Positions 18,893 through 34,170 are shown, numbered from the stretch's first letter. The stretch: DNA of 64,000 bases from Gammaproteobacteria bacterium (GCA_030949385.1 JAUZSP010000010.1:62001-126000); one strand, 5' to 3'. The notes: generated from the letters alone by a model not told the origin. Numbers and translations: made by a program.

Positions 18893-18969
18893 GGCTATGT
18901 AGCTCAGTTGGTTAGAGCACAGCATTCATAATGCTGGGGTCGGTGGTTCAAGTCCACCCATAGCCACCA
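18893..18969 (+). tRNA. tRNA-Met (anticodon CAT, elongator type)
   Basis: A 77-nt cloverleaf with acceptor GGCTATG/CATAGCC, anticodon stem CAGCA/TGCTG enclosing TTCATAA (anticodon CAT), T arm with GGTTCAAGTCC, and encoded CCA. The paired G1-C72 and the overall likeness to E. coli elongator tRNA-Met argue against initiator tRNA. A CAT tRNA-Ile modified to lysidine is less likely from the acceptor sequence. Confidence 0.95.
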
Positions 18970-19006: not shown

Positions 19007-19828
19007 TTATTCCGTTTTTCTGTCACTCCATTGACGTTGTTTTACCCCTCGATACTCAATACGTTCACAGCGTATGGGGAAAAAATGCCCCTCTGGTTTT
19101 TCGCTGGCTTCAATAAAACAGGGATAGATGCCGGCAGAAAATCCCAGCCCCATAAAATAATAACCTTCCTTTGTAGTCAATCCTTGGTCAGTAAGTAGGC
19201 TGGCTATGATTGCTGCAATATTCATAAAATTGCGTGAATGTTTTTTTAGCAGCATGGCTTCTATTTTGAAAGCCAGCTGAAGGTAGTCACCACCTGCTAG
19301 ATTGAGTGCGGTTGCTTTTGCTAGCAGTGGTTTGATACGTTCATCTTGAATGGGGATGGGGCGTCCATAACCGGAAATGTTTTTATACTTTTTCAATTCA
19401 TATTGAATAATTTTTTCTAAGCTGAGACCGGTTTTTTTCTTTTTCATACTTCGTTGGAGAAAATCCATGCAGCGGAGTTCTGCTTTCCAGCCGTATACGA
19501 CAGCCTCAGAGACTGCATTGGATGCAGAAATGGCTAAGGAAGCCGTGCTGCGTGCCGTGCCTGCCAGCGCGGCCACACGATTATTCCAAAGGCGCGGGTC
19601 GGGGTAACTGGTGCTGATGACCCAAAGGGCGTTAAAAAGCTCAATCTGTTGTTTGGAAAATTCTCGACCCGTGATGCCAAGCAACAGCAATTCAATCCAA
19701 GAGTGATCTTGCAGTTCGTGAAAAAGGTCTTTGCCACGATAGACTACACGTTGTTCAGCACCAAACCAGCCACCCATTTGGGTTTTCCAGAGTTTCTCAG
19801 CGCTGAGCAGATCATTTTGTTTATTCAC
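19007..19828 (-). CDS. Citrate-synthase-like protein, second copy (no visible catalytic triad)
   Basis: I take the GTG at 19828 (VNKQNDLLSAEKLW), which overlaps the stop of the preceding gene by 8 bp; longer frames run inside that gene. The 273-residue product resembles the short citrate-synthase/citryl-CoA-lyase fold: RGKDLFHELQDHSWIELLLLG at ~30-50, the GTARSTASLA helix at ~90, then SGYGRPIPIQDERI near 160, which aligns with the GFGHPVY region. By eye the three citrate-synthase catalytic residues are missing: no His in the HGGA position, Arg for His in GFGH, and Ala for Asp in NID. Lysine-rich segments (KKKKTG) are atypical. It probably partners the neighbouring paralogue. Function unknown. 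Confidence 0.7.
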   Translation of the reverse strand: MNKQNDLLSAEKLWKTQMGGWFGAEQRVVYRGKDLFHELQDHSWIELLLLGITGREFSKQQIELFNALWVISTSYPDPRLWNNRVAALAGTARSTASLAISASNAVSEAVVYGWKAELRCMDFLQRSMKKKKTGLSLEKIIQYELKKYKNISGYGRPIPIQDERIKPLLAKATALNLAGGDYLQLAFKIEAMLLKKHSRNFMNIAAIIASLLTDQGLTTKEGYYFMGLGFSAGIYPCFIEASEKPEGHFFPIRCERIEYRGVKQRQWSDRKTE

Positions 19829-20645
19829 TGAACGAACCGGGGTCGTTTTCAACCTGTAAGCCATCGGCAAAGAAAGGGTAATGGATCCAGCCCCGTGGCA
19901 TCTGTTCCAGCGCGTGTGCCGCCGCCCCTGGCAGACGCAGCAATAAATAGAGCATTTCGCTTTGCTGGGGCGTGAAGCCCAAATCGTAAAAGGCGGTCGC
20001 TGCAACACCCAGCATGGAGAGTGGGTTGTGTGCGACTTGTTCAAAGGCTTGGCGGTTTTTTTGCAGCCAAGAGAGTGCGCCTTCACCTTCCGTGGAGTGT
20101 GTGCAGCACTGTCGCAGCGCCTGTAAAACGGGGCTGGCGCAGGAGATACCATGAGGGTCAAAACCAGGAAAGTGTTCCATCTCAGGCCAAATATCGGCGC
20201 GTTCATTGTCGTTGAGAGAGTCAAACCAGCTTTGCCAAGCTTTGAGGTCTAAGCCGCACTGCTGCCAGCCTTGCAGTGCCAGCGCTAATTCATGCGCACC
20301 GCCATTTTGTCCTGCGCCAACGGCCAGTGCGGCAATTAAACAAGAAGCGCTGGTGGATTGACCCACGCCACCGTTCATGGCCGCTCGCACACTCAGATCT
20401 CTCGGGCCTGGGTTGGCTAAAATCAGTGCGACATCTTCGAGCAGGTTGGCTTGCCAAGGCAGAGGTGCTTGGCGTTGAAACAGCAGAAAAAGATACTCTG
20501 CCCAACGGGCGTTGCCGAGCAGGTCGCCATAAACATCGTAACCGGCGCAGTGACAGGTTTTGGCGGCAAAGGGGTTGTCAGCTTCGGCTTCTTCTTGCCA
20601 AATGCGGCTGCGAATGGTTTCGATTTTGGTGCGTTTGGCCATCAT
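19821..20645 (-). CDS. Citrate-synthase-like protein, first copy (catalytic residues altered)
   Basis: A 274-residue protein with the short citrate-synthase/citryl-CoA-lyase architecture: CAGYDVYGDLLGNARWAEYLF at ~32-52, the NGGVGQSTSASCLIAALAVG helices at ~90-110, and the PGFDPHG loop near 160, then an AFYDLGFTPQQSEMLYLL segment at ~215 and the closing AHALEQMPRGW. The family motif HGGANE reads NGGAHE, GFGH reads GFDP, and the third catalytic Asp appears replaced by Leu, so ordinary citrate chemistry is doubtful. Its ATG overlaps the stop of the ThDP enzyme gene (ATGA at 20642-20645) and its own end overlaps the paralogue, so all three form a tightly coupled operon. Role unknown. Confidence 0.75.
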   Translation of the reverse strand: MMAKRTKIETIRSRIWQEEAEADNPFAAKTCHCAGYDVYGDLLGNARWAEYLFLLFQRQAPLPWQANLLEDVALILANPGPRDLSVRAAMNGGVGQSTSASCLIAALAVGAGQNGGAHELALALQGWQQCGLDLKAWQSWFDSLNDNERADIWPEMEHFPGFDPHGISCASPVLQALRQCCTHSTEGEGALSWLQKNRQAFEQVAHNPLSMLGVAATAFYDLGFTPQQSEMLYLLLRLPGAAAHALEQMPRGWIHYPFFADGLQVENDPGSFSE

Positions 20646-22391
20646 TGACCGCCTAAGACTTTGACTCTGGCACCCATTGGCGGAACTTCTTCTGGGTCAA
20701 TATAGACATCAATGAGTGTCGGGCCTGGGTGGTTGCAGATGGCGTTAAAATCCAGCGTTAATAGGTCATTGGGTTGCTGAATACGGACGTTCTGTATCCC
20801 CATCGCCTGTGCCATTGCGGCGTAATCAATCTGAGGCAGTGCATGGCCGATGGACTCTGCTTTGCTCAAACATTGGCCGTGTTTTACCATTCCTAGAGAG
20901 GAATCATTGAGAATGATAAAAATAACAGAGAGATTTTCTTGCGCGGCGACGGTGATCTCTTGGCCTGACATAAGCCAACTGCCATCGCCTGTGACGCAGA
21001 CCACCGCTTGGTTTTTACTGCCGATAGCGGTGCCGACCGCAGCACCAATAGCCCAGCCCATCGAGGCAAATTCCAACGCGCCACGAAACAGCGGTTTGTC
21101 GCCGTCTCGTGCGGTTAAACGCCGCTCTGGGGGGTGAAAATAGTGAATGGCCCAAGCGATGCTGTTGCCAGAATCGGCAAGAAACAGCGTGCCTGAGGGC
21201 AGTAACTTGCCTAGAGTTTGCATTAACCATTGAGGTTTTATACAGGTCTCTGGATTGGATTCTAATGTGAATTTGTCATTTTTAATCTGTTGTTGGTAGG
21301 GGGAGTATTTGTTTTTCTTGGATGTTTGCGCTGATGTTTGCTGTTTTTGGGCGTGGCTCAGCAGTTCTGTGCAGATTTTTTTCAGGTTGCCGCAGAGTTG
21401 CATTTTTGCCATTGGTGAACGGGTGAGATTGGTCGCGACCTGTTCTACATGCAGCAGTCGATTGTTCAGCAGGGCGTTATCCCAGCCGTTGCTGGCCCAT
21501 TCACCCAAGCCGGTACCGATGGCCATAATGGCATCAATGTGCTTCTCTTTTAGAATGTCGAGGGCGCTTTGATGACCGGCAAAACCGAGTACGCCACAAA
21601 ATTTTGGGTGATCGTGATTGATCAGACCTTTTGCGTGAGGGGTGGCAATCAGCCAAGCACCTAAGGTTTCTGCCAATTGGCAGAGAGGTTCAATGGCGGC
21701 TTCGGCGTCACTGCCCACCACAAAAACCAGCCCCTGCGCCTTGTTTAAGTGCTGCGCTAATTGTTCGACTTGTTCTAAATCCACGGCAAAATTGGTTTTG
21801 CTCAGTTGCGCTACGTCGTATTGAGGGGCTTTGAAGGGGGCGGGGGCGCGCAGAATGTCTAAGGGCAGGGTGAGGTGAACGGGGCCTGGGGGTGATTGGA
21901 AGGCGGTCATAATGGCGGTGATCAGTTTGCGTTCAAATTGATCAATGTGTGAGATTAAGCTGTTGTAGCGTGTGCAGGACTGAAACATGCTGACGGTGTC
22001 GATGCCACTGCAAGAGGATTCTTGCAGTGCGCCTTTGCCAAAATTGCTCAGCGTTGTTTGGCCGGTTAAGACCAGCATCGGGATTTGGTTTTCGTAAGCA
22101 GAGGCCACACCGGTAAGCAAATTGGTGGCACCAGGGCCGGTGGTGGCGCAGCAGACACCCAGTTTTCCGGTTTGGCGAAAATAACCATCGGCCATAAAAG
22201 CCGCACCGGTTTCGTGACGTGCAACCACGGCTCTGATGCCGCCAGTGCGTTGGCTGCGAGCCAGTGCATTAAAAAGGGGTTCAATGCCGCCACCTGGCAC
22301 ACCAAAAATGGAATCAATTGAAAGTTGGTTAAGGTAGGCCAAGAGTAGGTCGCCAACTTCAAACAGGGGATTGCACTCTTTTTTTAGACAT
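20642..22391 (-). CDS. ThDP-dependent enzyme of the acetolactate-synthase superfamily
   Basis: About 582 residues in the three-domain ThDP fold. The N-terminal PYR domain has FGVPGGGIEPLFNALARS and the catalytic glutamate in ARHETGAAFMADGY; a central nucleotide-binding-like domain follows (~200-330). The C-terminal PP domain has the GDG...ND cofactor motif (GDGSWLMSGQEITVA to ILND). Decarboxylase/carboligase chemistry on a 2-oxo acid is expected; it is not obviously IlvB because no small subunit gene is nearby. The best start is ATG 22391 after AGGAAATTT, but a 7-base A run (22379-22385 in plus coordinates) puts it out of frame by one base. The uninterrupted frame instead reaches 22501 through implausible sequence. 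First gene of an operon with the two citrate-synthase-like genes. Confidence 0.82.
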
Positions 22392-22674: not shown

Positions 22675-23490
22675 ATGCGCAACGATCCACCTTTAATTGA
22701 GCAGCGAGTGCGGCATACGGTGCGTTTGATGCTCAATCGACCAGAGCAATACAATGCCTTGAATACGGTACTAATTCAGCGTTTACGCGAAGCGCTGTGG
22801 CGTTTGGCAGCTGATGATACGGTGCGTCAAATCGTAATTGCTGCCAACGGCCATAAATTTTGTGTTGGCAGTGATGTGGAGGAGATGCAGAAGTTACTTG
22901 ATGCCGGTGAGGATAAGGTCGAAGACCTGTTGCAGCTGGGGCAGCTGTTGCGCGAGTTGGATCGTTTTCCTAAGCCGGTGGTGGGGTTGGTGCAGGGGGA
23001 AGTGTACGGCAGTGGTGTGGGTTTGCTGGCCTGTTGTGATGTGGTGTTTGCCACGGAAAAAGCTCGATTTTGTCTCCCCGAGGTGCGTTTAGGGTACGTT
23101 GCAGCCCTCATCAGCCCTTATATTTTGGCTGCGATGGGCAGCCGAGCTGCGGGGCGTTATATGTTGACCGGCGAGCATTTTAGCGCCGCTGAAGCAAAAC
23201 GCTTGGGGTTGGTGCATGAGGTTTACCCACGCAGCCAATTGGCCTTAGAAGCGAATAAACTATTGAAAAAATTGCAAGCTACGGCTCTGCACGCCCAGTT
23301 AGAGACCAAAGCCATGTTGGCTCGGCAGCAGCAGACGCCGGTTGATAAAGAGGCTTTATTGGAGAGTGTGCAGTTGGTGGCGCGTTTACGCTGCTCGGAT
23401 GAGGGGCGTGAGGGGATTCATGCGTTTGCTGAGGGGAGGCGTCCCAGCTGGCGACCGGCTCCGCAAGAGGAGTTGGCTGATGATCTGTGA
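22675..23490 (+). CDS. Enoyl-CoA hydratase/isomerase family protein, methylglutaconyl-CoA-hydratase-like
   Basis: A 271-residue crotonase-fold protein preceded by a strong AGGAGG ribosome site. The oxyanion-hole strands are present (ANGHKFCVGSDVEEM at ~60 and GEVYGSGVGLLACCDVV at ~105-120). Of the two classical hydratase glutamates, the first position is Gly (GSGVGLLA) and the second is kept (LPEVRLG). This pattern and the LISPYILAAMGSRAAGRYMLTG stretch resemble methylglutaconyl-CoA hydratases (LiuC/GnyH) of leucine breakdown, but no other leucine genes are present. It is divergent from the ThDP/citrate-synthase-like operon with 173 bp between, so a shared acyl-CoA pathway is possible. Confidence 0.85.
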   Translation: MRNDPPLIEQRVRHTVRLMLNRPEQYNALNTVLIQRLREALWRLAADDTVRQIVIAANGHKFCVGSDVEEMQKLLDAGEDKVEDLLQLGQLLRELDRFPKPVVGLVQGEVYGSGVGLLACCDVVFATEKARFCLPEVRLGYVAALISPYILAAMGSRAAGRYMLTGEHFSAAEAKRLGLVHEVYPRSQLALEANKLLKKLQATALHAQLETKAMLARQQQTPVDKEALLESVQLVARLRCSDEGREGIHAFAEGRRPSWRPAPQEELADDL

Positions 23491-28113: not shown

Positions 28114-30776
28114 CTAGACCGTGATTGGGTTGGGTTTGTTGATGTCGATGCCGTATTTTTTGATCGCTTCGCTGACTTTGCTGGCGGCGATTTCTTTGCG
28201 ATCCGCCAAGCTTTTCAGGGCAGCAACGGCGATGTAGTGGCGATTGACTTCAAAGAAGGTGCGCAGTTTTTCGCGGCTGTCGGAGCGGCCAAAGCCATCG
28301 GTGCCGAGCACTTTGTAGTCACTGGGAACATACGCGCGAATCTGATCGACGTAGGCGCGGATGTAATCGGTGGCCACCACTACTGGCCCTTCGCTGCCAG
28401 ACAAACATTCTTCGACGTAGCTGATGCGGGCTTTTTTCTTCGGGTTGAGCATGTTGTAACGCTCTACATCGTGGCCGTTGCGCGCCAGTTCGTTGAAGCT
28501 GGTGACGCTCCAGACATCGGCGCTGACCCCGAAGTCATTTTGCAGCAGTTCGGCGGCGGCGATGGCTTCGCGCAAAATGGTGCCACTGCCCATCAGTTGT
28601 ACTTTGGGGCCTTTGTTGGGATTCTGTTGCAGGCGGTACATGCCTTTGAGGATGCCCTCTTCAACGCCCTCTGGCAGCGGCGGTTGCTGGTAGTTTTCGT
28701 TCATGGCGGTGATGTAGAAGAAGACATTTTCTTGTTTCTCTACCATGCGCTGCATGCCGTTGTGAATGATAATCGCCATTTCGTACGCAAAGGTGGGGTC
28801 GTAGGCGACGCAGTTGGGGATGGTGTTGGCCACCAACAGACCGTGACCGTCTTGATGTTGCAGCCCTTCTCCATTGAGGGTGGTGCGTCCTGCCGTTGCG
28901 CCGATGAGGAACCCCCGTGCCTGCATGTCACCGGCAGCCCAAGCGAGATCTCCGATGCGCTGGAAGCCGAACATGGAGTAGTAAATGTAGAAGGGAATCA
29001 TGTTGACGCCGTGGTTGCTGTAGGCGGTGGCCGCTGCAATCCAAGAGGACATGGAACCGGCTTCGTTGATGCCCTCTTCGAGGATCTGACCGGATTTGTC
29101 TTCTTTGTAGTACATCAACTGATCACGATCTTGTGGTTCGTAGAGTTGACCGACGGAGGAGTAGATGCCGAGCTGGCGGAACATGCCTTCCATGCCGAAG
29201 GTACGTGCTTCATCGGGGACGATGGGGACGATGTTTTTGCCGACTTTTTTGTCGCGGGTCAGGGCGGTCAAGATGCGCACAAAGGCCATCGTGGTGGACA
29301 TTTCCCGTTCGCCGCTGCCTTTGAGCATCGCCGAGAAGGCCTCCAGTGGGGGAACTTCCAGCGGCGCGGCCAGATGTTGGCGCGAGGGCAGATAACCGCC
29401 GAGGGCTTTGCGACGCGCTTGCAGGTACTGCATCTCTTCGCTGTCGGCGGGCGGTTTGAGGTAGTCGGCGTTGGTGGCTTGTTCGTCGCTCAAGGGCAGG
29501 CGGAACCGATTGCGGAAGGCGAGCAGGTCGTCGTTGTCGAGTTTTTTCTTCGAGTGGCTGATGTTCTGCCCTTCGGCGGATTCACCCATGCCGTAGCCTT
29601 TGACCGTTTTGGCCAAAATAACCGTGGGCTGGCCTTTGTGGGCGACGGCTTCGGCGTAGGCGGCGTAGACTTTGTGTGGGTCGTGACCGCCGCGATTGAG
29701 GTGCCAAATGTCGTCATCGGAGAGGTGGGATACCAGCTCTTTCAGTTCGGGGTATTTGCCAAAGAAGTGTTCACGGGTGTACGCACCGCCTTTGGCTTTG
29801 TAGTTTTGGTACTCGCCATCGACGCACTCTTCCATGCGTTGGCGCAGCAGGCCGGTTTTGTCTTTGGCCAGCAAGGGATCCCAATAGGAACCCCAGACCA
29901 CTTTGATCACATTCCAGCCCGCGCCTCGGAAGACCGCTTCCAGTTCTTGAATGATTTTGCCGTTGCCGCGCACCGGTCCATCAAGGCGTTGCAGGTTGCA
30001 GTTGACCACAAAGGTGAGGTTGTCGAGTTTTTCCCGCCCGGCCAGCGAGATGGCACCGAGGGATTCCGGCTCGTCGGTTTCACCGTCACCCAAGAACGCC
30101 CAGACGCGCCGAGGTTCGGTGTTGGCCAGTTTGCGGTGCTGCATGTATTTCATGAAGCGCGCTTGGTAGATGGCCATAATGGGGCCCCAGTCCCATGCTG
30201 ACGGTGGGAAACTGCCAAAAGTCGGGCATCAACCACGGATGTGGATAGGAGGAGAGGCCAATGTCTTTGCCTTCCGATTCTTGACGGAAGTGGTTGAGCT
30301 GATCTTCGCTCAAGCGGCCTTCGAGAAAGGCGCGAGCGTAGATACCAGGCGAGGAGTGGCCTTGCAAAAAGAGCAAATCACCGCCGTGTTCGGGGGTTTG
30401 GGCGTGAAAAAAAGTGGTTAAACCCCACATCGTAGAGGGTGGCTGAGGAGGCAAAACTGGCGATGTGGCCACCCAGGTCGGGGTTATGACGGTTGGCACG
30501 CACCACCATTGCCAAGGCGTTCCAGCGAATGTAGGAGCGCAAGCGGCGTTCCAGCTCTTGATTGCCGGAGCTGCGTTTTTCCAAATGGGTCGGAATGGTG
30601 TTGAGGTAGGCGGTGTTGGCACTGAAGGGCAGGTGCGCACCCGAACGGCGCGCCTGATCGATTAATTTCCCGAGTAGGTAGTGGGCGCGTTCAGGTCCTT
30701 CAGCATCAATGACCGCTTCCAGGGCTTCGAGCCACTCTTGAGTCTCTTGGGGATCAATGTCGGGTAGTGTAGTCAT
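28114..30776 (-). pseudogene. aceE: Pyruvate dehydrogenase E1 component, two apparent frame breaks
   Basis: Homodimeric-type ThDP-dependent E1, which decarboxylates pyruvate and acetylates E2 lipoate. Three frames together give about 886 residues, the standard AceE length. The N-terminal part (30776-30378) breaks at a 7-base A run (plus strand 30407-30413), where six would continue into [11 protein letters not shown]. The second part breaks at GGGGCCCC (30181-30188), where one C fewer gives [14 protein letters not shown]. The long third part carries the ThDP motif region [12 protein letters not shown] and the rest of the enzyme. Both breaks are single-base insertions in homopolymers. The gene starts the operon aceE-aceF-lpdA, 11 bp before aceF. 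Confidence 0.9.
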
Positions 30777-31052
30777 AGTGTCCTCACGCCAAAGTGACGA
30801 GTGATTTTATGTGGTGGCAGAAGCCGTGTTTACGGATTGGCTCGACCTTAAAAAAAGGGAGTCATTATGCCTGAACTGGGTGATGCTTAGAAGCCTGTGA
30901 ATGATTCGCTGGGGTTGGAAGTGGTTTTTTATCTTTGGCCGGAAGGGTTGGCTGGGTGCGTTGTGAAGAATTTAAGGTTAGAATGAGCCAATAAAATGTT
31001 AGGTCAGCGATTCGAATAACAATAATAACGAAATGCTGCGTATTGAATGTAA

Positions 31053-31064
31053 GGGGGGGGGGGG
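31053..31064 (+). repeat. Poly-G tract (12 G) overlapping the TonB receptor's ribosome site
   Basis: Twelve consecutive G bases end 5 bp before the ATG at 31070, and the last Gs plus AG form the apparent Shine-Dalgarno sequence (GGGGAG). A TTG-started frame (31043) reads through the tract in phase with the receptor. Tracts of this length slip during replication and act as switches in phase-variable surface genes of several pathogens. Here changes in length would alter ribosome-site spacing or the phase of the leader frame. Confidence 0.8.
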
Positions 31065-31069
31065 AGTTG

Positions 31070-33154
31070 ATGTTGGGTTACGTGCCATTGCTGTTTTTTG
31101 TGAGCCTTTTAAGTGCTGCGGTGCAGGCTGTGGAGTACAGCCGTGAGGAGCAAGATTTGCTCTTGCTTTACGGTGATGAAGAGATGATCACCATTGCTAC
31201 GGGTGAGCAGCAACCGCTTTCAAAAGCACCGGCGGTGGCCAATGTGATCACCGCTAAGCAGATTAGAAGGATGGGGGCGACGGATCTGGATGAGATTTTG
31301 GAGAGTGTGCCTGGGCTGCATGTCTCTCGCAGTAGCAGGTACAACCCACTTTATTTGTTTCGTGGCATTGCTTCCAGTTTCAACGCCGAAGTATTGATGT
31401 TGATCAACGGCGTGCCGATCAACACCTTGTTTGTCGGTGATCGGCATCAAGTCTGGGGTGGCATGCCGGTGCAGGCGATTGCTCGGGTTGAGGTGATCCG
31501 GGGGCCGGGTGCGGCGATTTACGGTGCCGATGCCTTTGCGGGGGTGATTAACGTCATTACTAAAAACGCGGCGGACATTAACGGCACCGAAGTGGGTTTG
31601 CGTTACGGCAGTTTTGCTAGCCAAGAGGTCTGGTTGCTGCACGGCAGTGAGTGGGCGGGTTGGCAGTGGGCCTTTGCACTGGAGGGCAGTCGAACGGATG
31701 GGGCTAAAAGCATCATTGAACAGGATGCACAGAGCGGTCTGGATCAGCTTTTGGGCAGTCAGGCTTCCCTAGCACCTGGGGCGGTGAGTTTGCAGCGAGA
31801 CAGCCTTGATCTGCGTCTGGAATTGGGGCGTGGCAATTTTGTGGCGCGCTTGGGTTTGCAGCGTCGTACGAATTTGGGTGTGGGTGTGGGGGTGGCATCG
31901 GCATTGGATCCTAATGGTCGTCTGGGCAGTGATCGTTGGAATCTGGATCTGAATTATCACAACGCCAATTTGGCTGAAGATTGGGATATCAGCTCGCAAT
32001 TGAGTTTTTATGACACGTCGCAAGTGGTTGAGCAGGATTTGCATCTTTTCCCAGCGGGCAGTCTTGGTTTTCAGGAGGGTATTATTGGCAACCCTGAAGT
32101 GTTTGAGCGGCATTTTCGCGGGAGTGTTTCGGCTGCTTATGCCGGTTTTTTTGGTCACCGAATTCGTTTGGGTTTCGGTTATACGGTAAGCGATCTTTAT
32201 CGGGTTAATGAGACAAAAAACTTTACCTTCGCTGCGGGCTCTCCTCTGCCGATGCCTCTGGGTGGGGTGCAGGATGTTTCGGACAGTGATGCGGTTTTTT
32301 TGACGGAAGGGAAACGTAAAAATGCTCATATTTTTCTGCAAGACATCTGGAAACTGGCCAACGATTGGGAGTTGACCGCTGGTGTGAGGCTGGATGATTA
32401 CAGTGATTTTGGTCAGAGCGTTAACCCACGCTTGGCTCTGGTTTGGTCGATGGGACAAAATTCAACTCTGAAGTTGTTGCACGGTCAGGCGTTTCGAGCA
32501 CCTTCTTTTTTGGAGACTCAGGGGCGTAACAACCCCGTCGCCTTGGGTAATGTGGATTTGAAACCCGAAACGATTCAGACGACGGAGCTGGCGTTTGAGT
32601 ACTACCCACAAGAACGTCTGCGTTTGAGTACCAGCCTGTTTCGTTATGTCTGGCAAGACATCATTCGTTTTGAAGCGGTGGATGCCAGCGGTTCGGACCC
32701 TTCAAGGCAGGCACAAAACAGCGGCAGTCAGAGTGGTGCGGGTCTGGAATTTGAGATTGATTGGCGCGTGAACGCGGATCTTCATTTGATGATGAACTCC
32801 GCTTACCAATATTCGCATGATGAACGCAGCGGTCAGTCTGCTGCCAACGCCCCCAATCATCAGCTTTATCTGCAGGCCAATTGGCAATTCCAGCCTGCTT
32901 GGAGTTTAAACTCACGTTTGAACTTGGTGATGTCGAGAGCCAGAGAGGCGGGGGATCTGCGTGCTGAGGTTGCTGATTACAGCACTCTGGATGTGAGTGT
33001 GCGGCGGCGTTCGGTCGTTGCAGGTTGGGCGGTTGCTGTGGGGGTGCGTAATCTGTCGGATACGGATCGTCGCGAGCCGTCAGGAGTAGAAATTCCAAAT
33101 GATCTGCCTCTACCAGGGCGAAATGCCTTTGCTGAGTTGAGTTACACCTTTTAG
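31070..33154 (+). CDS. TonB-dependent outer-membrane receptor
   Basis: A start at ATG 31070 (MLGYVPLLFF) gives 694 residues with a signal peptide to about residue 19 (AVQA-V). A short N-terminal segment precedes the plug domain (~45-165: APAVANVITAKQIRRMG, ESVPGLHVSRS, RGPGAAIYGADAFAGVINVIT), followed by a 22-stranded barrel ending in the aromatic AFAELSYTF. These are the standard plug and barrel marks of TonB receptors. The substrate is unknown; the class resembles receptors for siderophores, vitamin B12 or other ligands. The next genes, a periplasmic binding protein and a huge hybrid kinase, suggest a sensing role rather than simple uptake. No TonB/ExbBD genes are nearby. Confidence 0.9.
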   Translation: MLGYVPLLFFVSLLSAAVQAVEYSREEQDLLLLYGDEEMITIATGEQQPLSKAPAVANVITAKQIRRMGATDLDEILESVPGLHVSRSSRYNPLYLFRGIASSFNAEVLMLINGVPINTLFVGDRHQVWGGMPVQAIARVEVIRGPGAAIYGADAFAGVINVITKNAADINGTEVGLRYGSFASQEVWLLHGSEWAGWQWAFALEGSRTDGAKSIIEQDAQSGLDQLLGSQASLAPGAVSLQRDSLDLRLELGRGNFVARLGLQRRTNLGVGVGVASALDPNGRLGSDRWNLDLNYHNANLAEDWDISSQLSFYDTSQVVEQDLHLFPAGSLGFQEGIIGNPEVFERHFRGSVSAAYAGFFGHRIRLGFGYTVSDLYRVNETKNFTFAAGSPLPMPLGGVQDVSDSDAVFLTEGKRKNAHIFLQDIWKLANDWELTAGVRLDDYSDFGQSVNPRLALVWSMGQNSTLKLLHGQAFRAPSFLETQGRNNPVALGNVDLKPETIQTTELAFEYYPQERLRLSTSLFRYVWQDIIRFEAVDASGSDPSRQAQNSGSQSGAGLEFEIDWRVNADLHLMMNSAYQYSHDERSGQSAANAPNHQLYLQANWQFQPAWSLNSRLNLVMSRAREAGDLRAEVADYSTLDVSVRRRSVVAGWAVAVGVRNLSDTDRREPSGVEIPNDLPLPGRNAFAELSYTF

Positions 33155-33216: not shown

Positions 33217-34170
33217 TTGGGGCGATTGGTGTTGATTGCGCTGCGGAAGGTGGTGTACGGAGTGGGATTTTTAATTCTTGCTCTTATGCCGTTGCAACCT
33301 GTGTTGGCGCAGCAGCCTGTGGCGGTGGTGTATCCGCAGGTGGATGGGCGGTTTCAATTCATTTTTGCCGAGATGTTAAAGGGCATTGAGTCCGTTATGG
33401 GTGAGCCGGTACGCGGTTATGTGTTGCCTGCTGACTATCAATTGGACGACTTGGATCGCTGGTTGGATCAAGAAGAGATTGAGGTGGTTATTGCCTTGGG
33501 TGGCTCCAGCTCCCGAGCGTTGGCGCAGCTGAAGGGGCTGGTGAACGTAGTTTATGGGGGAACCGATCTCTCCGTGAGTCGGGCGGGCAATACGGGGATT
33601 AGCTTGATGCCGGATCCCAAGCTGTTATTTGAGCGCTTGCTCTCTTTGGTTCCCGAAATAGAGACGGTCACGGTCATTTACAGCATGGAAAACAACGCCT
33701 GTTTAATTGAAAAAGCGCAGCAAGAAGCGCGTGACAGGGGGCTGATTCTGGAGGCGATTCCCGCAGAGAATATGAAAGAGGCGGCGGGTTATTATCGCCG
33801 TTGGTTGAAACAGCTGGACGCTAAAAAAGACGCACTCTGGCTGCCGATGGATCGGGTCACGGTGGATCAAAGTCGGCATTTTTCCAATCTATTGAGCCAA
33901 GCGTGGGAGCGAGAATTTGTGATTTTTTCCAGTACGTCGGTACACGCGAAACGAGGTGCGCTTTTTTCTCTCTATGCGGATAATAACGCCTTGGGGCAAA
34001 GTTTGGCGCGGATGGCGCGACGTCAATTGCAGTCTGAGGGCGATGAGGGCATTCGCCCTTTGTTAGAAGTGAAGTCTGCCCTTAATCGACGTACCGCAGA
34101 TCATCTTGGTTTACGTTTGGTGCCACGCCAAATTCGATCTTTTGATCTCTTATTTCCTCGACGTTATTAG
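33217..34170 (+). CDS. Periplasmic ABC-type substrate-binding-like protein
   Basis: A 317-residue exported protein, TTG start, signal peptide to about residue 31 (PVLA-Q). The mature sequence follows the ABC substrate-binding (PF04392-like) pattern: AVVYPQVDGRFQFIFAEMLKGIE, then EVVIALGGSSSRALAQL, VVYGGTDLSVSRAGNTGISL and ALWLPMDRVTVDQ. No permease or ATPase accompanies it; instead it stands between a TonB receptor and a membrane histidine kinase. In such settings these proteins may present a ligand to the kinase sensor domain. That is inference; direct transport with distant components remains possible. Confidence 0.75.
   Translation: MGRLVLIALRKVVYGVGFLILALMPLQPVLAQQPVAVVYPQVDGRFQFIFAEMLKGIESVMGEPVRGYVLPADYQLDDLDRWLDQEEIEVVIALGGSSSRALAQLKGLVNVVYGGTDLSVSRAGNTGISLMPDPKLLFERLLSLVPEIETVTVIYSMENNACLIEKAQQEARDRGLILEAIPAENMKEAAGYYRRWLKQLDAKKDALWLPMDRVTVDQSRHFSNLLSQAWEREFVIFSSTSVHAKRGALFSLYADNNALGQSLARMARRQLQSEGDEGIRPLLEVKSALNRRTADHLGLRLVPRQIRSFDLLFPRRY

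Follow-up and report, generated by a model that had tools for sequence, protein, structure and literature searches.

What a ThDP-dependent carboligase and two divergent citrate-synthase-like proteins accomplish together is the question raised by three tightly packed genes in a 64,000-nt stretch of Gammaproteobacteria bacterium DNA (GCA_030949385.1 JAUZSP010000010.1:62001-126000; hereafter the window). The overlaps described in an earlier note on this DNA, which took the genes (TPP, CS1 and CS2; Table 1) to be made together, were both found, with CS1 starting within the ThDP stop codon (ATGA at 20642-20645) and the GTG start of CS2 at 19828 lying 8 bases within the 3' end of CS1. Pfam and NCBIfam agree with the note on one ThDP enzyme and two citrate-synthase-like proteins, the citrate-synthase-like matches being weak, and neither a small AHAS subunit nor a TCA gene was found beside the trio, also as reported there. 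The ThDP gene had been placed as far as 22391; this held for the ORF, which is present with AHAS-superfamily domains, but not for its start, because an A7 run at 22379-22385 puts ATG 22391 out of frame. The frame from that ATG as read is full of stops, and the open frame of the ThDP ORF runs from TTG 22501 to its end at 20642. In a sister genome the same run is A6 and the ThDP ORF is intact from the corresponding ATG (MSKKECNPLFEVGDLL...); the same reading of the run here would make TPP approximately 580 aa long from ATG 22391. This one-base homopolymer difference reflects a slip in the assembly or a genuine mutation. Elsewhere in the window, aceE (pyruvate dehydrogenase E1; 28114-30640) is read as two overlapping, frameshift-like ORFs of 687 and 184 aa, and an ALS-like gene of the genome (G000:C3:390673-392299) is likewise broken in two, which points to possible indel errors in the assembly. 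A tRNA-Met gene (18893-18969) lies directly past the 3' end of the trio; tRNA genes are common sites of gene-block insertion. A search of PLSDB for plasmid carriage returned no match to CS2.

Table 1. Positions of the trio and of the receptor cassette in the window.
Feature	Position	Strand	Basis
TPP (ThDP-dependent carboligase, AHAS superfamily)	20642..22391	-	PF02776/PF00205/PF02775; catalytic Glu and GDG; sister ORF intact
CS1 (citryl-CoA-lyase-fold protein, catalytic triad not intact)	19821..20645	-	ATG start; weak PF00285; AF2 model; 6hxp match
CS2 (second citryl-CoA-lyase-fold protein)	19007..19828	-	GTG start; PF00285 24 bits; AF2 model; invariant DER
TonB-dependent outer-membrane receptor	31043..33154	+	PF07715 and PF00593
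Orphan periplasmic substrate-binding protein (SBP), TrpX-like	33217..34170	+	PF04392; signal-like N-terminal segment
Membrane hybrid histidine kinase-receivers-Hpt-GGDEF-EAL, 1479 aa	34192..38631	+	Pfam domains; two TM segments

The operon was confirmed, and its conservation is strong. The earlier note proposed that conserved co-occurrence of the trio in unrelated lineages would support a system, and the three genes were found together in most of approximately 127 related loci, which come from Gamma- and Betaproteobacteria, relatives of Geobacter, and one bin each of Planctomycetota and Fibrobacteres. Of 369 gammaproteobacterial genomes, 47 matched a CS1 profile, with strong matches (at least 129 bits, a threshold that we set) in 41; more genomes in the phylum matched as well, and a TPP profile matched 48 of the same 369. 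A scan of named genomes yielded 80 loci, including Gallionella, Rhodocyclales, Geobacter/Pelotalea and the Planctomycetota and Fibrobacteres members, the last two being metagenome bins, which can be misassigned. HMM mapping of the approximately 127 loci gave the gene order TPP-CS1-CS2-TonB-SBP-HK/RR with local rearrangements, the trio being followed almost always by a TonB receptor, a PF04392 SBP and a membrane hybrid kinase and/or GGDEF-EAL regulator. Of these loci, 46 span at least 17 kb; among them, CS2 was present in 46, TPP in 45, TonB in 44, HK/RR in 41 and SBP in 39, and the genes of the trio typically overlap or are separated by a few bases (median gaps of 10 and 1 bp). At the level of genomes, CS1 (41) and SBP (43) were found together in 36 of 369 (Fisher p=1.8e-37, with phylogeny not corrected for). 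The linkage has exceptions: the Planctomycetota and Fibrobacteres loci carry the trio without TonB/SBP, and a few genomes have the SBP and kinase and no CS1, some of these contigs ending nearby and some having TPP on another contig. An SDR gene recurs in about nine loci. The divergent crotonase at 22675, which the earlier note had suggested as a partner in acyl-CoA chemistry, was dropped as a member of the system, being kept in the sister genome only and absent from the recurring neighbour families.

The receptor, SBP and hybrid kinase are the main context of the trio, which the earlier note had overlooked, and with this linkage the trio reads as part of a module for sensing or signalling rather than as a metabolic pathway. 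In the window the cassette (31.0-38.6 kb) lies 9 kb from the trio, with pdh and other genes between. Its TonB receptor is the sole related receptor found in the genome and, like the SBP, has a signal-like N-terminus. The single Pfam match of the SBP is PF04392, and no permease was found beside it in the window or as a conserved neighbour across the loci. The kinase combines HisKA, receiver, Hpt, GGDEF and EAL domains with a periplasmic part flanked by the two TM segments, and it scores 373 bits against the LuxQ equivalog model, below the cut-off of 1200. TPP, CS1 and CS2 have no TM or signal segment and are predicted to be cytoplasmic. At one locus (L204, G285:C181, 7459-18503), the SBP and kinase genes occur twice in opposite orientation, the copies agreeing in length and start, which reflects a fold-back of the assembly or a true inverted repeat.

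The enzyme that heads the operon has the three TPP domains PF02776, PF00205 and PF02775, and its best NCBIfam model is the AHAS large subunit (TIGR00118). Ordinary branched-chain or acetoin metabolism, carried out by a diverged AHAS and degenerate citrate synthases, would be one account of such a match; the score, however, is 304.6 bits against an equivalog cut-off of 538.35, whereas the genome has an ordinary AHAS elsewhere that scores 870 bits. Assignment to the ScyA-related subfamily failed similarly (NF035927, 270.3 bits against a cut-off of 1000). The best PDB matches are BbmA (8x3x/8xod, 1e-85) and CsmA (8x3z, 9e-77), both ahead of AHAS. The catalytic Glu was found in 101 of 102 TPP family members (the remaining one has a gap) and GDG in all 102. 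Residue comparison with AHAS, based on PDB alignments, placed a Gly in 102/102 members at the position of the AHAS acceptor-site Trp (Gln in AHAS I), with G542 invariant, and BbmA (G484) and CsmA likewise have Gly there. In AHAS this Trp/Gln is the key site for 2-ketobutyrate (PMC5727371). In addition, no regulatory small subunit was found in the neighbourhood of TPP in the window or among the recurring neighbour families. With the low score, the altered acceptor position and the separate AHAS, TPP was rejected as an ordinary AHAS, and together with the constant linkage to receptor genes these features make ordinary metabolism a highly improbable explanation of the locus. From the conserved motifs and the acceptor-site Gly we infer that TPP functions as a carboligase and has more room at its acceptor site.

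The two partner proteins appear to have kept a fold and lost a chemistry. PF00285 scores were 13.2 bits for CS1 and 24.1 bits for CS2, under the cut-off of 27, and both were far below the cut-offs of the NCBIfam PRK06224 models. According to AF2 models of high confidence (pLDDT 90.7 for CS1 and 91.0 for CS2), both have the citryl-CoA-lyase fold, matching 6hxp with Z 19.1, rmsd 4.9 and 237 aligned residues for CS1, and Z 22.6, rmsd 6.2 and 250 aligned for CS2. They are also related to one another (hhalign probability 96.6%), each family having its own separate conserved motifs. Read against ordinary relatives with an intact His/His/Asp triad, CS2 has Tyr or Phe in place of the first His in 42/42 members (Tyr in 41), Arg in place of the second in 42/42, and at the Asp position A, G, N, T, S or L, never Asp. 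In CS1, Asp is present in 0 of 38 members, the second His in one and the first His in 12, nearly all of them second-tier members. No member of either family has the full triad. Because the triad is not fully kept in either protein, classical citrate synthase or lyase chemistry is unlikely, and the condensation of a 2-oxo acid with an acyl-CoA by citrate-synthase chemistry, as suggested in the earlier note, is not borne out. The note had also allowed that either protein might prove to be an ordinary citryl-CoA lyase or PrpC; given the missed family cut-offs and the lost catalytic residues, neither is. Two ordinary citrate synthases are encoded elsewhere in the genome.

The loss of the triad admits two accounts of CS1-CS2, each compatible with signalling. 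CS1-CS2 could be an active heteromeric acyl-CoA enzyme with new catalytic residues (e.g., Tyr/Arg and DER of CS2 with His/Glu of CS1), in which case the earlier note's condensation would be right in outline. Consistent with this, invariant or near-invariant polar residues are kept in both proteins (Y112, R156, D162-E163-R164 and N203 in CS2; H158, H244 and E247 in CS1), and second-tier CS1 members retain the first His, but since the full triad occurs in no member and the second His of CS2 is Arg throughout, we regard this account as rather doubtful. The pair might instead be a purely non-catalytic regulator or scaffold of the ThDP enzyme that replaces the AHAS regulatory subunit, a role suggested by the loss of the triad in both proteins, by tight co-transcription and by a TPP-CS1 fusion in one genome (L015), but somewhat unlikely in light of the catalytic enzymes that take the place of the pair beside the cassette at other loci, which suggest a chemical step rather than scaffolding.

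These partner swaps are the most informative result of the analysis. In one genome (G132; L203, 7713-15294), TPP lies with a SAM methyltransferase, TonB receptor, SBP and kinase, and in another (G034; L213, 1-7865) with a 131-aa protein, a KAS III, TonB receptor, SBP and kinase; CS1 and CS2 are missing from both loci, the other enzymes lying between TPP and the receptor cassette in their place, and each of these clean swaps is a single locus in one genome. The KAS III has Cys110 and His/Asn and is apparently intact. The L213 cluster adjoins CheB/CheD-like chemotaxis genes. In two further genomes (G075 and G202), genes for a FIST-domain protein and a kinase lie beside TPP. A TPP subfamily with the motif FGVPGNAMEPL was seen at L214, L215 and L219 with a kinase or kinase-like gene nearby and CS1/CS2 absent from the same place; a FIST-domain protein lies near TPP at L214 and L215 (Pfam was run on L214). 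The sensory side varies as well: at L110 and L111 the trio stands beside a giant Ser/Thr-kinase-AAA-GAF-histidine kinase, not TonB/SBP (Pfam run on L110), L190 has the trio with a member of the same clustered giant-kinase family, L147 has a Ser/Thr kinase-TPR protein, and L094 has PAS/GAF hybrid kinases. To judge from these gene contents, the constant element is a ThDP enzyme, apparently active, beside a receptor or kinase, while the second enzyme varies.

Considering the linkage, gene order, domain content, ThDP motifs, altered acceptor pocket, triad loss and partner swaps, all of which are directly observed, we lean towards the reading, drawn by analogy, of a two-part signalling module, in which TPP-CS1-CS2 carries out the biosynthesis and the TonB receptor, SBP and hybrid kinase do the sensing. 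TPP would join an aldehyde unit derived from a 2-oxo acid to an acceptor that exceeds 2-ketobutyrate in size, and the product would be of the acyloin type. CS1 and CS2, probably as a heteromer (compare the TPP-CS1 fusion), would bind or pass on the acceptor or the product, or alternatively would finish the product by a reaction that does not use the classical triad. The product would then exit the cell, molecules from outside would return to the periplasm through the TonB receptor and bind the orphan SBP, and the loaded SBP, by analogy with LuxP-LuxQ, would switch the kinase, changing phosphorelay and c-di-GMP output.

Several observations count against the signalling model. In the window a distance of 9 kb, occupied by pdh and other genes, separates the two parts, the Planctomycetota and Fibrobacteres trios are without TonB/SBP, no exporter was found as a conserved neighbour across the mapped loci, and a few genomes have the SBP and kinase without CS1. 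Moreover, what a receptor encoded next to enzymes reports could just as well be a nutrient from the environment. In the main rival of the signalling model, an external compound would be both sensed and used, with the TonB receptor importing a 2-oxo- or hydroxy-carboxylate, the SBP and kinase reporting it, and the trio using it as a cytoplasmic substrate, perhaps by running in the lyase direction. TonB receptors usually serve the uptake of scarce nutrients, enzyme genes that neighbour a receptor and a kinase often belong to inducible catabolic operons, and the predicted cytoplasmic location of the trio would fit. On the other hand, the conserved neighbours of the trio include no inner-membrane permease, no transcription factor and no downstream catabolic enzyme, which weighs against use of the compound, the output of the window kinase is phosphorelay/c-di-GMP, and the TPP partner may be a biosynthetic-looking methyltransferase or KAS III. 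We therefore consider sensing and use of an external compound unlikely.

The signalling model can be extended beyond this locus. We put forward tentatively, as a possibility that may well need revision, that the trio and cassette represent a widespread, undescribed signalling class, in which a ThDP carboligase and a heteromeric, repurposed citrate-synthase-fold pair make a new signal that is received by the TonB receptor, SBP and hybrid kinase, each of the exchangeable second enzymes (CS pair, methyltransferase or KAS III) giving a dialect of its own. If this is true, many environmental proteobacteria, among them SAR92, Porticoccaceae, Gallionella, Colwellia, Marinobacter and relatives of Geobacter, share an unread chemical language. 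Its enzyme logic would be new, in that a ThDP carboligase is combined with a repurposed citrate-synthase fold, and its periplasmic receptor would be TonB-gated. Should self-sensing prove absent, the locus would still encode a metabolite-sensing system that is conserved and uncharacterised, with CS1-CS2 as an example of paired citrate-synthase relatives whose fold has persisted through long evolution while the catalytic residues were lost. Culturable carriers include Cognaticolwellia mytili KCTC 52417 (L177), which has the full set, and Marinobacter xestospongiae (L193), which has the trio plus TonB, so that the question of the ligand is directly testable in named strains.

The earlier note knew of no described pathway with this gene set, and a literature search, with subscription journals mostly outside its coverage, likewise found no description of a TPP-CS1-CS2 cluster. 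Among single enzymes, TPP resembles the AHAS large subunit in its three TPP domains, catalytic Glu and GDG...N motif, but differs in scoring far under the TIGR00118 cut-off, in having Gly for Trp/Gln, in being without a small subunit and in coexisting with a separate true AHAS. BbmA and CsmA share the Gly at the acceptor position, and CsmA also the PPMG.RVK C-terminus, a comparison of the proteins alone. ScyA couples two 2-oxo acids; the ScyA-related family belongs to the same ThDP superfamily as TPP, but no scytonemin genes were seen beside TPP. CS1 and CS2 share the fold of citryl-CoA lyase (6hxp) and citrate synthase, but form a conserved neighbouring pair in which the triad is not intact and the NCBIfam cut-offs are missed. 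Among whole systems, LuxS/LuxP-LuxQ (AI-2) and CqsA/CqsS resemble the proposed module in that a small-molecule synthase is coupled to a hybrid histidine kinase of the membrane and a phosphorelay. The products of CqsA are alpha-hydroxyketones, and LuxP is an orphan periplasmic binding protein encoded beside its kinase. The window shares the LuxPQ arrangement, in which the gene for a periplasmic binding protein adjoins that of a membrane hybrid kinase carrying phosphorelay domains, but its kinase falls below the LuxQ cut-off and its binding protein is PF04392, not LuxP-type. Unlike both systems, the present one would rely on a ThDP carboligase and a CS-fold pair for synthesis, includes a TonB receptor and has a GGDEF-EAL output. 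With synthase and receptor parts that match none of the systems compared, the trio and its cassette would be of the kind of chemical signalling or metabolite sensing.
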